DNA of 20,748 nt from a virus. Positions 1 to 20,693 of the stretch are shown here, in pieces (the first letter of the stretch is position 1; every line of letters starts with the position of its first letter). A model generated the notes under the pieces. It did not search any database and had not been told where the DNA came from. It was given only the letters and a program-made list of their open reading frames with translations. The stretch covers positions 1 through 20,748 of IMG/VR virus record IMGVR_UViG_3300032086_002540. One strand, given 5' to 3'. The translations under genes were made by a program, and so were the position numbers.

Positions 1-805
1 GTTTAAAGAATTTGAGATAATGATACTTCTCTAACATCTTGTAAATTACATTTTTAGGAAGTCGGTTCTTAACGCCAAACTTTCTGATTTCGTCTGGTGA
101 CATATCAGCTGTAAAAGCGTCTTTTCTGTCTTGTACAGTTTTGTCTCCAATATCAATTAATGTGTTAATAGAATCTTTAATCTCAGCTAACTTCTTAGCA
201 ACTAAACTACTTAATCCTTTTATGTCTGCAGGAGTTAGTTGTTTTAGTTCCTCATAATCAATCATATCTCTTACAAGTTCACCTTTAACAACATCTATTT
301 CAGATACACGTTTCTGAAAATCCGCTACGTATTTTTCTGGTTCAAAAGTTCCAGGATCTGGTCTTCTTATAAACTTATTAAGGTCTATATCAAAAGTACC
401 ATCTGCCATGTCTCTTGCCTTACTAAATGTAGCAGGATCTATGATAGAAAAGTAGTTGATAGGATGTTTTGTTCCTGGTATTACTTTACCATTTATTTCG
501 CCTTGATATTCTCTTATTTTTTCGTGTACTTTTTCTTGTTCAGCTTGTGAACCAGGTATATCAAATAAGATATTAATGTCAAGGTCTGCGTCATCCCTAT
601 ATTGTTTTGTAAGTATAGAACCAATTAAGGTATACTTAACTACTTTTCCAAATTTCTCAAATGTTTTAATTCCGTCTAATATTTGTTTTTTTACAGCAGG
701 CTTTAAAGATGGGCTGTTTGTGTCTGGATTATCAAACACAGGTTTAGCATACGTTTGTCTAGGTATGTCTATAATTGATTCTTTTAAAAAATCTTTAAAT
801 CTCAT
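1..805 (-). CDS. Nucleotidyltransferase-fold protein, C-terminus cut by window edge
   Basis: About 268 codons are visible and the frame is still open at base 1, so the C-terminus is missing. The start ATG (805-803) overlaps the TGA of the upstream kinase gene as ATGA. Residues 58-78 carry the nucleotidyltransferase (pol-beta-like) signature: a Gly-Ser pair at about 62-63, a short spacer, then D74-x-D76 in a hydrophobic strand (DADLDINIL). A third acidic residue could lie around D139/D141. Such proteins transfer a nucleotide to RNA, DNA, protein or a small molecule; the substrate cannot be read here. The N-terminus MRFKDFLKES fits the [FY]xx[FYQ][LI]xE tag shared by the next three upstream genes and resembling the T4 capsid-targeting sequence. 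The fold assignment is fairly sure; the role is inferred. Confidence 0.72.
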   Translation of the reverse strand, partial: MRFKDFLKESIIDIPRQTYAKPVFDNPDTNSPSLKPAVKKQILDGIKTFEKFGKVVKYTLIGSILTKQYRDDADLDINILFDIPGSQAEQEKVHEKIREYQGEINGKVIPGTKHPINYFSIIDPATFSKARDMADGTFDIDLNKFIRRPDPGTFEPEKYVADFQKRVSEIDVVKGELVRDMIDYEELKQLTPADIKGLSSLVAKKLAEIKDSINTLIDIGDKTVQDRKDAFTADMSPDEIRKFGVKNRLPKNVIYKMLEKYHYLKFFK

Positions 806-1488
806 CTTTTCTTAGCCCTTAATTCTTTTTGTATCCATTGTTTTGCAATATAACTTTTTATAGGTGTCGTTAAATATTTATTTACAATTTTACTAACTCT
901 ATTCATTGTCAATGTTGTTAGTTCTAAGTCTGACTTATTGTTATCTACAACTATAAAATTACTCATACCAAATAATCTTTGAAACTTACCAATGTTTGAT
1001 TGAACACCTTCCCAACTATTTTTTACTATGTATTGTGGTATTGTTCTTTCTCTTCTTGCCTGTCTTTCTAACGCAACATCTAAACTTGTGTTTACAAATA
1101 TCATGTAAGTGTCATAACCCAAAGTAGATAATAAATTTTTATTTCTAGCAATTTGATCATAATCTCTACCAGTACCATCTATTACTAATCCTAATCTACC
1201 TTCTACATATTGATCTAACTGTGTTAGTACACTCATTTTTGCTCTTTTTCTAATTAAATCTCTAAAATAAGTTTCTTCAGGAGGCATTTGTAATGATAAA
1301 TTTGCTTTCTTTAATCCTTTCTCAAAAATAATATCTGAGTTAATAACTTTTAATCCTGAGCCAGCAAATGCTGTAGAGGTAACAAATGTCTTACCTGAAC
1401 CAGGACCACCTGCTAAAAAGAACGCTTTAAATATTCCTTTATCATATACACCTTCATTTATCTGTTGTACAAAACTTTTAACTTCCAT
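802..1488 (-). CDS. P-loop kinase, zeta-toxin / polynucleotide-kinase-like
   Basis: A 228-aa P-loop NTPase. Walker A GGPGSGKT is at about 27-34, followed by a strand ending INSD (49-52), a second strand with VIDGTGRD (about 102-109), and an Arg-rich lid-like stretch (RQARRER, about 143-149). This layout fits the zeta-toxin/PNK-like kinase group, which phosphorylates nucleotide sugars, nucleic-acid ends or small molecules; the acceptor is unknown. No antitoxin-like partner is visible, so a toxin role is not supported. The start overlaps the adenylate kinase stop by 11 nt and the stop overlaps the next start as ATGA, so the four genes look co-translated. Before the kinase fold there is a short extension ending QINE at residue 12, which fits the capsid-targeting pattern less perfectly than its neighbours do. 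Confidence 0.75.
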   Translation of the reverse strand: MEVKSFVQQINEGVYDKGIFKAFFLAGGPGSGKTFVTSTAFAGSGLKVINSDIIFEKGLKKANLSLQMPPEETYFRDLIRKRAKMSVLTQLDQYVEGRLGLVIDGTGRDYDQIARNKNLLSTLGYDTYMIFVNTSLDVALERQARRERTIPQYIVKNSWEGVQSNIGKFQRLFGMSNFIVVDNNKSDLELTTLTMNRVSKIVNKYLTTPIKSYIAKQWIQKELRAKKR

Positions 1489-2056
1489 CTTCTATTGCCT
1501 TTATAATTTTTTCTGCGTTATCTTCAATTGTGCCACCCTCTGCTTTTATTTCTATAAAGTTAGGTTTTTGCCTAAAATATTCTACAGCAGGACCTGTTTC
1601 TTTATTATACAAGTCTATTCTATTATTAATTATCTCTTCGGTATCGTCTGCTCTACCTCTTGCAAGTAGTCGTTTTAAAATCTCCTCTCTACTTACATCT
1701 AAAAATATTACTTTGTCGTAACCTATGTTTGCCTCTTCCATATCTCTTACTTGCGTCATATATCTAGGCCAACCATCTAATACGTAACCGTTAGGTGATT
1801 GTTCTACTTTATCTTTAATTAGTTTTAGTACAATCTCATTAGGTACAAACTGACCTTTTGCTAATAAATCTTTTACTTGTTTACCTATTTCTGTTTCTTG
1901 TTCTACTTCTTTTCTTAACATACCACCTGGATAGATATGAGGTATTGTATATCGTTTTGTAATATATTCTGCATAAGTAGATTTACCAGAACCAGGTCCA
2001 CCCATTAATATAATTCTTCTAGTTGTCTCTTCTAAAAATGTTGCAAATGTTTTCAT
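1478..2056 (-). CDS. adk: Adenylate kinase, short-lid form with an N-terminal tag
   Basis: Adenylate kinase catalyses ATP + AMP <-> 2 ADP. The 192-aa protein shows the P-loop GGPGSGKST (19-27), the nucleotide-binding DGWPR (94-98, usually DGFPR), the catalytic-Arg segment LARGRADD (131-138) and a conserved Arg in NNRID (about 144-148). The short distance between these shows a short lid without zinc cysteines. Cellular enzymes start almost directly with the first strand (M-RIILLG); here 12-13 extra residues, MKTFATFLEETT, precede RRIILMGG. That extension closely resembles the T4 internal-protein targeting peptide MKTYQEFIAE, with a possible protease site after LEE. The start overlaps the ligase-like gene stop as ATGA. 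The enzyme call is strong; packaging in the virion is inference. It could alternatively act on other NMPs to feed nucleotide pools. Confidence 0.9.
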   Translation of the reverse strand: MKTFATFLEETTRRIILMGGPGSGKSTYAEYITKRYTIPHIYPGGMLRKEVEQETEIGKQVKDLLAKGQFVPNEIVLKLIKDKVEQSPNGYVLDGWPRYMTQVRDMEEANIGYDKVIFLDVSREEILKRLLARGRADDTEEIINNRIDLYNKETGPAVEYFRQKPNFIEIKAEGGTIEDNAEKIIKAIEDGS

Positions 2057-3276
2057 CCTTTAATCCAATTCTTTTGTAAATTAAAGTTAGCAGTGCTAAA
2101 CTCTAATCTATCTACTAATTTAACAGCATTACCCATTCTATCTACAGCAACATAGCCTTCTGGATTAGTTATCTGAAAGCCATTGTTTGTTTGTAAATAT
2201 GTGCCAATAGATTTTATTTGATTCATTTTATTTACTAAAAAGTTCTTTGCTGTTTGTAAAGATACATAACTTGCAATTGCAAAATAAATTTCATTTTCGT
2301 ATCTATCAATAAATTTTAAACCTTCATTTCTAATAGTTTCGTATTTTCTTTTTGCACTATCAGTTTTTCTTTTACTTACCTCATCATCTAAAACTGAAGC
2401 ATAGTATTTTCTAAAATCTGTTTGTAGTTTTTTAACACCACTTATTGATCTACCTCTTTTAATATAATCATTGAAGTATATTTTTAATCTTGCACCAACT
2501 GATAGTAAACTTGTTTGTGTTTTAAGTAAGTTTAATATTCTTTTACCTTTACTAATAGAACCCATAGCCATTCTTAAAATGCCATCGTATCTTTCACTTT
2601 CTGTATCTGTAAATGTGGCAACACCAGAATTGTCTTTATAACTTGCGTCATCAAAAAATACTGATGGCGTCTTTGTAAACGAATTTACATTAACGCCAAA
2701 ACTTGCTTTTAAATCAGACATCTTTCGTCCTGTGTAAGTAGTATGAAATATTATGCCTAATTTAGCTCGTAAGATTTTTTTTGCAAGATCAGTATTTTCA
2801 GGTACAGCGTAAGTAATAGTGTTAGGTTTAAATGCAATTGAATCTTCACCTCTAATACTTACTTTTTCAATATCTTTAGGTGTAAATAATAAGTCGCCTT
2901 GTACAACACCTTTGATATTTAATTTAGGTAATTCTTTTAAACAGACTATAAGTTTATCTGCTAAACCACCTGCGTGATTTCTTCTTATGTCTGAAACTGT
3001 ATAATTGATTTTAGGATTTACGTTGAATATAGATTTAGAACCGACAAAGAATTTGCCGTTCTCTGGATTACGACCACAGAAAACTGCAGGCGCACCATCC
3101 CACTTTACAGATAGATTAACTTTTCTACGTGAAGAACCTAAAAGCATATTTCTTAAAGATTTAAGAAACTCTACTGCCTCTAAGCCACCACTGTAGCCGT
3201 TATTGATTATGTTGTCTTCTAAGTGTTCTAAATGTGTATTTTTAGCTTCACTTAAATATTGTTTAAAACTGTACAT
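2053..3276 (-). CDS. RNA/DNA-ligase-like nucleotidyltransferase (DUF6267-like)
   Basis: A 407-aa protein that I read as a covalent nucleotidyltransferase. Motif I is KWDG at 58-61, with Lys58 as the likely adenylylated residue. A motif-III-like strand VVQGDLLF lies at about 124-131. Near the C-terminus EGYVAV (about 373-378) followed by VKLVDR (about 385-390) resembles motifs IV and V of T4 RNA ligase 1, which also contains EGYVAV. A long helical, basic region (about 240-350) sits between III and IV, so this is not a standard ligase. I recall similar phage proteins filed as DUF6267; I could not check this. The N-terminus MYSFKQYLSEAK matches the capsid-targeting pattern with cleavage possible after LSE. 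It is the first gene of its operon: a good ribosome site (GGGAG) lies 6 nt upstream, with consensus and late-type promoters before it. Confidence 0.68.
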   Translation of the reverse strand: MYSFKQYLSEAKNTHLEHLEDNIINNGYSGGLEAVEFLKSLRNMLLGSSRRKVNLSVKWDGAPAVFCGRNPENGKFFVGSKSIFNVNPKINYTVSDIRRNHAGGLADKLIVCLKELPKLNIKGVVQGDLLFTPKDIEKVSIRGEDSIAFKPNTITYAVPENTDLAKKILRAKLGIIFHTTYTGRKMSDLKASFGVNVNSFTKTPSVFFDDASYKDNSGVATFTDTESERYDGILRMAMGSISKGKRILNLLKTQTSLLSVGARLKIYFNDYIKRGRSISGVKKLQTDFRKYYASVLDDEVSKRKTDSAKRKYETIRNEGLKFIDRYENEIYFAIASYVSLQTAKNFLVNKMNQIKSIGTYLQTNNGFQITNPEGYVAVDRMGNAVKLVDRLEFSTANFNLQKNWIKG

Positions 3277-3294: not shown

Positions 3295-3323
3295 ATTATA
3301 TCAAAAATCAAGGCCATTGTCAA
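3295..3323 (-). promoter_or_regulatory. Consensus sigma70 promoter of the ligase-like cassette
   Basis: On the minus strand TTGACA (3323-3318) and TATAAT (3300-3295) are separated by exactly 17 nt, a perfect match to the bacterial housekeeping consensus. The predicted start is near 3288, giving a leader of about 12 nt that contains the GGGAG ribosome site of the gene starting at 3276. It would allow transcription by unmodified host polymerase. Confidence 0.85.
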
Positions 3324-3367: not shown

Positions 3368-3375
3368 TATTTATA
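3368..3375 (-). promoter_or_regulatory. T4-type late promoter box TATAAATA
   Basis: Minus-strand TATAAATA at 3375-3368 is an exact match to the T4 late promoter -10 box, which is recognised by the gp55 sigma factor coupled to the gp45 clamp. It lies just after the stop of the 402-aa gene and about 90 nt before the ligase-like gene. It is the only exact copy I noticed in a non-coding gap. AT-rich DNA can produce such a box by chance, but the location is right for a promoter. Confidence 0.55.
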
Positions 3376-3378
3376 AGA

Positions 3379-4587
3379 TTAATTGCCTTTGGCAATAACA
3401 AATTTGCCTGAAAGAGGTGTACGAGAGGTTACGTATTGATACATAATTAAAACAAAGTCGTTAATTTGTTGTTGACTTCTTTTATCTGTTCTTCTAAACC
3501 ACTTCTTCAGGACAGGCATAACTTTATTAATAATATTTAAGGCAGATATTTCACCTCTTTTAAAATTGAATAAATCTTTATTTTTTTTCTCTAATGCTGC
3601 TCTTTGTTTTACAACAGGTGCAATCTGTTTAAAATACATCTTTTCACCATCTTCATATAATTTTTTTACTTTTACTGCTGTTTGTTTATCTACAAATGAT
3701 AACAGTTCAGCAAACACTCTCATAGAGCCTATTGAACCACCTCTTGCTTCTGCACCACCTCCTAAAAACTCAGCAACAAATCTCTTTGCACTAGGGTCGT
3801 GTCTTAATTTTATGTCACCAGATTTAAGCAATATTCTCATATCTCTAGTTTCTGTTTTTTTACCAAATGCAACTTTCTTATAAGGTTTCCAATCTGTTGT
3901 TCCTTTTACTACTAAATTTTTTAATGCTTTAATTTCTGCTTTTCTGTCAAAGTTGACTAGTTGTATTATAGCTTTCTTTGTAGTCTTCTTTAATGATAAA
4001 GGTAACATATCACCACTATCAATTAAGTCGCTGATTAAAAGATTAAGTTGAGGAAAACCAAATGAGTTTGGTTTAGCTTCTTGTAGTGTAATTCGTATTT
4101 TATCTTTTGCTTTTTTACTTGCAAGATATATATCAGCAGGTGACCATTTGTTTATATCACCAAAACGTGTTTGATTTTTTACTGTGATAGGCATTTTGTT
4201 TGCCATAGACCATAACTTTTGTATGTTGCCCATGACATCTTTATCACCTCTAAAATAAAATAAATTTTGATAACCTTTTGCTTTAATGTTATAATCTTTA
4301 TCTATAGTTTCTATTTGTTTGATTAACTCAACAGCAATTAAATTAGATGATATGTACCAATCATTATTAGCAGTTAAAAAGGTAAGTATGTCATTATACA
4401 TAACACCAGGCGTGTCTATACGTCTGTACGCTTGTTCTAACTTTGTGTTATACTTGTCTCTAAAATCTGTAAATGTAGGATATTTTTTAAGGTCAAATGC
4501 CTTATCTATATTACTTGCGCCTACGTTATCTGCAACCGAAGAAAATAACGCTTGTGCTGATTCCAATAATGCTGTTTTGTCTGCCAT
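3379..4587 (-). CDS. Unknown 402-aa phage protein, possibly nuclease-fold or virion protein
   Basis: I do not recognise the family with confidence. The protein is rich in Lys and predicted helices. Its most conserved-looking stretch is KWSPADIY (about 147-154), followed about 40 residues later by a strand LPLSLKK (about 195-201). A paired acidic strand and S-x-K strand is typical of PD-(D/E)xK nuclease-like folds in large phages, but this is only a weak resemblance. A Gly-rich loop (about 275-287) and a basic C-terminus (RRTDKRS) suggest nucleic-acid contact. The residues ALLES at 6-10 give a possible prohead-protease site (LxE), though the tag shape of the following genes is absent. No clear ribosome site precedes the ATG at 4587. 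It lies just upstream of the packaged-enzyme candidates. Confidence 0.6.
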   Translation of the reverse strand: MADKTALLESAQALFSSVADNVGASNIDKAFDLKKYPTFTDFRDKYNTKLEQAYRRIDTPGVMYNDILTFLTANNDWYISSNLIAVELIKQIETIDKDYNIKAKGYQNLFYFRGDKDVMGNIQKLWSMANKMPITVKNQTRFGDINKWSPADIYLASKKAKDKIRITLQEAKPNSFGFPQLNLLISDLIDSGDMLPLSLKKTTKKAIIQLVNFDRKAEIKALKNLVVKGTTDWKPYKKVAFGKKTETRDMRILLKSGDIKLRHDPSAKRFVAEFLGGGAEARGGSIGSMRVFAELLSFVDKQTAVKVKKLYEDGEKMYFKQIAPVVKQRAALEKKNKDLFNFKRGEISALNIINKVMPVLKKWFRRTDKRSQQQINDFVLIMYQYVTSRTPLSGKFVIAKGN

Positions 4588-11757: not shown

Positions 11758-11786
11758 ATTATAACACTTCTAGTTGAATTTGTCAA
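11758..11786 (-). promoter_or_regulatory. Consensus promoter abutting the TSPPY methyltransferase start
   Basis: Minus-strand TTGACA (11786-11781), 17-nt spacer, TATAAT (11763-11758): a perfect sigma70 consensus, with the -35 inside the last codons of the MT-A70 gene. Only AGATT separates the -10 box from the ATG at 11752, so the expected start site is about the A of the start codon. Confidence 0.85.
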
Positions 11787-20664: not shown

Positions 20665-20693
20665 ATTATATAATAAAAAAGGCGGGATGTCAA
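20665..20693 (-). promoter_or_regulatory. Perfect consensus promoter of gp45, overlapping a terminator
   Basis: Minus-strand TTGACA (20693-20688), 17-nt spacer, TATAAT (20670-20665). The -35 box forms most of the loop of the terminator hairpin, and the spacer holds one arm and the T-run. The predicted start near 20658 gives a leader of about 22 nt with the GAGGAG site of gp45. Confidence 0.88.

Follow-up and report, generated by a model that had tools for sequence, protein, structure and literature searches.

Why do four consecutive enzymes at one end of a T4-like phage genome fragment begin with nearly the same few residues? The fragment (IMG/VR record IMGVR_UViG_3300032086_002540) is 20,748 bp long, is termed the window here, and has 31 called genes, including a replication block with gp41, gp43, gp44, gp45 and UvsX. 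The window ends with four overlapping minus-strand genes, which encode a DUF6267 protein, an adenylate kinase (ADK), a P-loop kinase and a PolB-type nucleotidyltransferase (NTase). An initial annotation noted N-termini of the form [FY]xx[FYQ][LI]xE on these four proteins, likened them to the capsid-targeting sequence (CTS) of phage T4, and proposed that the enzymes are packed in the head, trimmed, and injected as a nucleic-acid repair kit. All four N-termini are as it described. Most probably the four genes form one operon, and a CTS addresses their products to the phage head as cargo. The observations behind this reading are the tags, their rarity and conservation, both promoters ahead of the operon, a gp21 gene in a near-complete relative (G001), and tags on homologues detected in virions elsewhere; from these we infer packaging in this phage, trimming, and injection.

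The T4 CTS, MKTYQEFIAE-A (a hyphen marks the cut or predicted cut in all tags below), directs targeting mainly through residues 4 and 7 and processing through residues 8 and 10 (Mullaney and Black, as given in PMC9026906). Its residue pattern, with aromatics at 4 and 7, a hydrophobic residue at 8 and glutamate at 10, is reproduced exactly in only two of the four tags: MYSFKQYLSE-A of the DUF6267 protein (3247..3276, minus strand), with F4, Y7, L8 and E10, and MKTFATFLEE-T of ADK (2027..2056, minus strand). The likeness to T4 holds more loosely for the other two. The NTase tag, MRFKDFLKE-S (779..805, minus strand), is one residue shorter than the T4 register, and has the same form as MRFRQFIIE-A of the virion-detected protein S-SZBM1_140. 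The kinase tag, MEVKSFVQQINE-G (1453..1488, minus strand), is two residues longer and has Q, not an aromatic residue, at the second targeting position; as a peptide it is given as MEVKSFVQQINEG beside MYSFKQYLSEA, MKTFATFLEET and MRFKDFLKES. A cleavage site of the [L/I]xE type is present in all four proteins, and cutting there is predicted. The start codons are well fixed because the genes overlap: ADK overlaps the DUF6267 stop by 4 nucleotides, NTase overlaps the kinase stop by 4, and the kinase gene overlaps the ADK gene by 11.

Such N-termini are rare. A strict motif, ^M.{1,4}[FYW]..[FYWLIVMQ][LIVMF].E, matches 4 of the 31 gene calls in the window, and these are exactly the four adjacent operon genes, in agreement with the earlier remark that other genes of the window lack the pattern. 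After internal ATG codons, which served as a control, the motif occurs 0 times in 98 in the window and 22 times in 7238 when 11 genomes are pooled. The binomial probability of finding at least 4 tagged genes among 31 is 2.5e-6 to 7e-5, with adjacency not yet counted. When aromatics are required at both 4 and 7, the motif is found at 1 of the 7238 internal ATGs of the 11 genomes and at 10 of 1947 other gene starts, a count that excludes the window and G001 clusters. These ten are IPII, IPIII and gp61.1 of T4; the SAM hydrolase, ORF136 and cytidylyltransferase of S-CREM2; GC190 of S-SM1 and of Syn9; the DUF6267 protein of DLP6, which has the tag MMKFTQFLAE-S; and gp15 of Melnitz, a phage in which gp16 also counts as tagged. 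In G001 (165 kb) the only strictly tagged proteins are DUF6267, ADK and NTase. A chance origin of the tags was also considered, and is ruled out by the internal-ATG control together with the exclusive match to four adjacent genes.

The tag is separable from the proteins that carry it. In an alignment to E. coli Adk (1ake), residue 14 of ADK falls on residue 2, so that the 12 residues ahead of the fold are an extension, as the initial annotation had supposed. The first 15 residues of the DUF6267 model lie outside the folded core, with pLDDT below 50. Untagged DUF6267 homologues have the same fold, which shows that the fold does not include the tag. Among relatives, positions 4, 7, 8 and 10 are conserved as a pattern while the positions between them vary. 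The motif is kept in 37 of 44 ADK relatives, with F at -6 and F or Y at -3 in all 15 of 15 distinct ADK tags. NTase relatives carry tags of variable length that end in [ILV]xE[SA] and are followed by a fixed body (...ES/EA-IIDIPR). Kinase relatives keep xE-G before a fixed body (...EG-[LV]YD) with an upstream part of varying length, and E12-G13 of the kinase is invariant in 17 aligned relatives. The residue after the predicted cut (P1') is A, G, S or T in 53% of distinct tags, compared to 26% in the background. For DUF6267, the strict tag is present in 48 of 63 DLP6-like loci, with near-matches in the other 15, and in 49 of 96 pelagiphage loci. Alignment of homologues, which had been proposed as a check on the tag, thus finds it kept in ADK and at the ends of the NTase and kinase tags, but not universal in DUF6267.

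The DNA ahead of the operon contains two promoters. A T4-type late promoter, TATAAATA, lies 92 nucleotides before DUF6267 (3368..3375, minus strand), and late expression of the operon is predicted from it. It is the only such octamer in the window, where 6.1 would be expected by chance, and 26 of 28 related loci have it too. This depletion looks as if late-promoter octamers were selected against in the replication block. A perfect sigma-70 promoter, TTGACA-17-TATAAT, lies 47 nucleotides before the DUF6267 start (3295..3323, minus strand) and has 0 or 1 mismatch in 22 of the 28 related loci. Two more perfect sigma-70 promoters are present in the window at 11758-11786 and 20665-20693 (minus strand), with none expected by chance. 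Late sites also lie upstream of gp21 and gp22 in G001 and of gp18-gp20, gp22-gp24 and alt in T4, and in S-CREM2 2 of 12 TATAAATA sites stand 28-29 nucleotides before the tagged SAM hydrolase and cytidylyltransferase. The gp21-family protease (Peptidase_S77) is found in G001 and in the ten other genomes searched. In addition, the capsid-protein cleavage regions of T4, G001, Melnitz and DLP6 share the ending of the tags; their propeptide boundaries are FGSFLTE-A, AAFLSE-A, SAFLSE-A and RSLLGE-A, respectively, with the cuts other than that of T4 deduced.

Tagged homologues have been detected in virions by mass spectrometry. The link to them runs through the fourth gene, of which the window holds the N-terminal part (2..805, minus strand; weak matches to PF01909/PF18765). 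Full-length relatives of 800-1140 residues add a CTP_transf_like domain (PF01467, E 8e-7 to 1e-4), which is cytidylyltransferase-like and of the NMNAT type, and several also carry DUF5824 (PF19141). Because the full-length relatives have this domain, the fourth protein is the counterpart of the cyanophage cytidylyltransferase T4-GC190, which adjoins DUF6267 on its downstream side; the membership rests on those relatives, and the domain would fall beyond the window edge. The NTase query had no match in phage records, and its relatives were taken from IMG/VR loci. GC190 was detected in S-SM1 virions (PMC3037559), and a homologue was detected in those of S-CREM2 (PMC10665884 Table 3) and S-SZBM1 (PMC9146016 Table 1). 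All three are tagged: MKKFSAFLNEA in S-SM1 GC190, MKNFSSFLTEA in S-CREM2 gp154, and MRFRQFIIEA in S-SZBM1_140.

The S-CREM2 virion permits a broader comparison. When the motif is sought within the first 30 residues, 7 of 10 bearers are virion-detected compared to 43 of 211 other proteins (p=0.0014); a strict start-anchored test was made first (p 0.011-0.037), and the p-values are uncorrected for the second look. The seven include all four reported non-lysis cargo enzymes, namely the SAM hydrolase, the cytidylyltransferase, an APH/ChoK-like kinase and a nuclease annotated as Cas9, as well as a 1937-residue baseplate protein that is probably a chance match. A GTG start would give the APH/ChoK-like kinase the N-terminus MKRFDAFLTEE, and the protein annotated as a CRISPR-Cas9 nuclease has LRFASFMAEA 17 residues in. 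In both, the CTS lies slightly inside the annotated N-terminus (OR473000.1 7704-12861), and the starts may be misannotated, the true one being GTG (for the kinase) or non-standard. S-CREM2 gp156, which adjoins the cytidylyltransferase and is also virion-detected, has a PolB-type domain. S-CREM2 virion and non-virion proteins are not told apart (p=0.40) by a much looser motif that asks only for [hydrophobic]xE close to the N-terminus, and therefore only the aromatic-spaced form is informative. In S-PM2 (L129 7992-9767), DUF6267 and the cytidylyltransferase are fused in an untagged protein of 591 residues; GC190 was undetected in the S-PM2 virion, in an experiment that also missed several known structural proteins (PMC3037559). 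The virion detections, together with the late promoters, the capsid-protein cleavage regions and the tags on many unrelated neighbouring families described below, speak for the head targeting and gp21-type trimming proposed at the outset, while the injection proposed with them is carried over by analogy with T4.

What would the cargo do? In the proposed mechanism, the N-terminal 9-12 residues would act as a T4-type CTS and bind the prohead core in late infection, and the gp21 prohead protease (Peptidase_S77) would cut after [L/I]xE. The mature enzymes would remain in the DNA-filled head and exit with the DNA. Their likeliest job in the cell would be to work on adenylate pools and the ends of nucleic acids ahead of phage gene expression. 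There, DUF6267 would serve as a ligase-like adenylyltransferase and the kinase and PolB NTase as end-processing enzymes, while the cytidylyltransferase-like domain would be of the NMNAT type and ADK would recycle AMP. This job is much less certain than packaging, and is offered only as a tentative possibility.

The individual enzymes are characterized to different degrees. The identity of ADK (1478..2056, minus strand; 192 residues with the 12-residue N-terminal extension) is secure, as its domain has the P-loop and lid and matches PF00406 (E=7e-40) and PDB adenylate kinases (E to 2e-34). The DUF6267 protein (2053..3276, minus strand; 407 residues; PF19782 E=8e-124) is the first gene of the tagged operon and has motifs in ligase order, K58-x-D60-G61, E373-G374-x-V376 and K386, that are invariant in 71 sequences. 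A fold search with the full-length window protein gave no significant match, probably due to a long helical insertion. For a compact cyanophage DUF6267 model (pLDDT 90), DNA or RNA ligases make up all of the 13 best PDB matches, with low TM-scores and with E values of 0.03-0.19, none below 0.001. On these models DUF6267 is a putative covalent nucleotidyltransferase, ligase-like rather than a proven ligase. The kinase (802..1488, minus strand; 228 residues) is AAA_33/Zeta-toxin-like (PF13671 E=1e-11, PF06414 E=3e-9), with PDB profile matches to 1gvn and 3adb. Its relatives also resemble L-seryl-tRNA(Sec) kinase, and its match to the phrog_505 polynucleotide kinase (PNK) reaches only E=6e-5, with Zeta toxin and L-seryl-tRNA(Sec) kinase scoring similarly. 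Its sequence would place it between these last two. PADLOC found no defence system, and gave only weak VakA/IetA P-loop cross-matches. An end-processing and sealing set with adenylate recycling plausibly fits these parts, and either host modification or the supply of NAD would fit them too, so that nucleic-acid repair is one of three live options. The repair kit of the initial annotation is plausible to this extent: DUF6267 is ligase-like and tagged PNK-phosphatase-like HAD enzymes occur in relatives, but the fold search gave no significant match.

The second of these options is that the head cargo supplies NAD+ and adenylate at the start of infection, for example against NAD-depleting defence, rather than repair. 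The CTP_transf_like domain is the partner most consistently found in virions, ADK is adjacent, and an NMNAT-type domain, ADK and an ATP-using ligase-like protein would be suitable parts. However, DUF6267 resembles nucleic-acid ligases, the kinase and PolB have no obvious role with NAD, and a PDB sequence search with the CTP_transf domain gave no match and hence no NMNAT identification. NAD+ supply is therefore rather unlikely to be the purpose of the cargo. The third option, also unlikely, is that the cargo modifies host macromolecules, as T4 Alt does, by means of nucleotidylating and phosphorylating effectors. Here the kinase is Zeta-toxin-like, and PolB-fold enzymes can act on proteins or RNA. 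In Agrobacterium phage Atu_ph07 (MF403008.1; L133 426-6605), five consecutive genes start M[KR]W[EN][QD]L[TN]E, and the last of them has a 'YRGM' domain fused to the same Zeta-like kinase. Atu_ph07 is a jumbo phage and has a gp21-type protease, and this start may represent another kind of head-targeting tag. Pfam gave the N-domain of that protein no assignment, though, and ADK and a ligase-like protein would be unusual as effectors.

Packaging itself has to be weighed against the view that these are ordinary auxiliary metabolic or nucleotide-salvage enzymes that act only in the infected cell, and that their N-termini are alike because of an amphipathic helix arisen by chance or a preference at translation starts. 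Pelagimyophage adk has been read in this way in print, where it is listed as an auxiliary metabolic gene in groups A and B (PMC7029224). The motif is short, and the perfect sigma-70 promoter predicts early expression of the operon as well. Several further observations weigh against head packaging. The kinase tag is without the second aromatic. The nearest isolate in the phage collection, Pelagibacter phage HTVC008M (54% identity in DUF6267 and 59% in the kinase), has no strict match (MYNDLLVED, MIPFILKEG). About half of the pelagiphage DUF6267 proteins keep F4 and F7 and have lost E10, most of those outside the 49 strictly tagged loci reading MFSFKGFxTxE or similar, and the DUF6267 proteins of cyanophages are tagged in 0 of 140 loci. 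The gene for gp21 is not in the 20.7-kb window itself. The virion evidence comes from mass spectrometry of cyanophages (S-SM1, S-CREM2 and S-SZBM1), not of pelagimyophages with this operon, and the association is modest, with p 0.001-0.04 in S-CREM2 and about 0.02-0.05 for the three phages combined. S-SZBM1_191 is tagged and was undetected in virions, and the S-CREM2 authors warn that abundant proteins may co-purify with virions (PMC10665884).

The initial annotation had held that homologues with the fold and without the tag would count against it, and the cyanophage DUF6267 proteins are in part such a case. They are nevertheless consistent with head targeting by the tag, since the untagged S-SZBM1_141 (DUF6267) is absent from the S-SZBM1 virion table and its tagged neighbour is present (PMC9146016); the case for packaging of tagged proteins is unaffected by an untagged DUF6267. 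Enzymes confined to the infected cell would also leave unexplained a motif at exactly four adjacent genes and rare elsewhere, a conserved pattern at 4, 7, 8 and 10 with free positions between, a late promoter, and tagged homologues in virions, which makes this view very unlikely. Most improbable of all is that the tag docks not to the prohead core but to a different phage assembly, be it the tail, the baseplate or a complex of enzymes inside the cell. In favour of this, virion mass spectrometry does not distinguish head from tail, and one pelagiphage clade's DUF6267 tags lost the cleavage glutamate and kept both aromatics. Against it, the motif is that of the T4 CTS and in its register, where mutations identified residues 4 and 7 as the targeting ones (PMC9026906), and the tags end much as the cleavage regions of capsid proteins do in these phages.

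Head cargo addressed by a CTS appears to extend beyond these four enzymes. A survey of 344 IMG/VR loci, with 100 families of four or more members, finds the strict tag in 92 of 222 CTP_transf/NTase, 87 of 267 DUF6267, 37 of 44 ADK and 12 of 75 kinase sequences. Seven smaller families are also tagged, including DUF6321 (5 of 5) and a HAD enzyme related to PNK phosphatases (3 of 8). This gives eleven unrelated-looking tagged families in the DUF6267 neighbourhood, most of which directly adjoin DUF6267; a twelfth (fam51, 2 of 8 tagged) is probably a chance match. In the window, the slot upstream of DUF6267 is occupied by a 402-residue protein (phrog_1462; 3379..4587, minus strand) that is itself without a CTS; in relatives, unrelated tagged families take this slot. 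A likeness of the 402-residue protein to PD-(D/E)XK nucleases is a guess made by eye. T4 gp61.1 (NC_000866 18966-19130; 54 residues) has an exact CTS, MKTFKEFIKED, at its start, and is similar in sequence to the region in which gp23 is cleaved (E 1.6e-4). Gene 61.1 lies between genes 41 and 61, which is the slot of the cargo genes in marine phages. Away from the DUF6267 cluster, a RimK-like ATP-grasp protein (L007 82-1131, Melnitz-3) has the CTS-like start MTQKFSQFITEE.

In the fused NTase-CTP_transf proteins, most pelagiphage sequences keep [ILVM]xE-[AG] about 12 residues before FGRFNPP, with varying flanks. The site lies between the PolB and CTP_transf domains and is seen in L091 2374-5235 and relatives. 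The Melnitz CTP_transf protein starts at the equivalent place, with the N-terminus MKKFSEIIEARGD. The conserved site and the Melnitz N-terminus therefore suggest that the long cargo may be cut into separate enzymes in the head. It is quite possible, if somewhat short of probable, that all of this forms one system in T4-like ocean phages: a locus for cargo, lying between gp41 and gp61, where unrelated enzymes would come and go, each gaining a transferable CTS; a polyprotein that gp21 would cut at the conserved [I/L/M]xE-A between PolB and CTP_transf; and a working enzyme pathway injected at time zero. The cargo would then comprise the ligase-like DUF6267, ADK, the kinase, the PolB and NMNAT-type transferases and the PNK-phosphatase-like HAD enzyme, and the S-CREM2 SAM hydrolase and Cas9-like nuclease would be cargo encoded elsewhere in the genome.

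The tags provide a simple rule by which phage enzymes that travel in the virion can be predicted from sequence. It picks out the S-SM1 and S-SZBM1 cytidylyltransferases as well as the non-lysis cargo enzymes of S-CREM2, for which no mechanism of head entry had been given. Under this rule the pelagiphage adk, published as auxiliary metabolism, is probably head cargo, in phages whose hosts are very abundant bacteria of the ocean, and the question of what phages inject besides DNA becomes testable from genomes. Such tags also offer themselves as natural means to load phage heads with enzymes.

The operon can be compared with several known systems. Like IPI-IPIII and Alt of T4, which bear a CTS cut by gp21, its products share the N-terminal register and the residue types at 4, 7, 8, 10 and 11; its relatives have a gp21-family protease, and it has a late promoter, as T4 alt does. 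The cargo differs, consisting of nucleotide and nucleic-acid enzymes where the T4 internal proteins are small and basic. The cyanophage virion cytidylyltransferase/NMNAT-like T4-GC190 (S-SM1, S-CREM2, S-SZBM1, S-SCSM1 and S-CBWM1) shares the Pfam domain, the slot after DUF6267 and the N-terminal CTS, while the pelagiphage version has a PolB-type domain fused in front; the cyanophage papers report its virion presence and not the tag. The T4 polynucleotide kinase/RNA ligase heal-and-seal pair is similar in the way it works, with a kinase and a ligase-like enzyme but no sequence membership, and PNK-phosphatase-like HAD enzymes occupy the same slot in relatives of the operon. T4 Pnkp and Rnl1 are not known to be packaged. 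The T4 CTS, head-packed enzymes such as Alt and the giant-phage RNA polymerases, and virion cytidylyltransferases were already known. The pelagimyophage adk is the same enzyme in the same phage group, treated as nucleotide metabolism with its 12-residue tag unmentioned (PMC7029224). In the open-access literature, no paper was found that ties a CTS to these enzymes or that deals with DUF6267, and 'capsid targeting sequence' and 'cyanophage' occur together only in a review of T4. What is new here is a probable multi-enzyme, tag-addressed cargo operon, a variant of the T4 internal-protein system.

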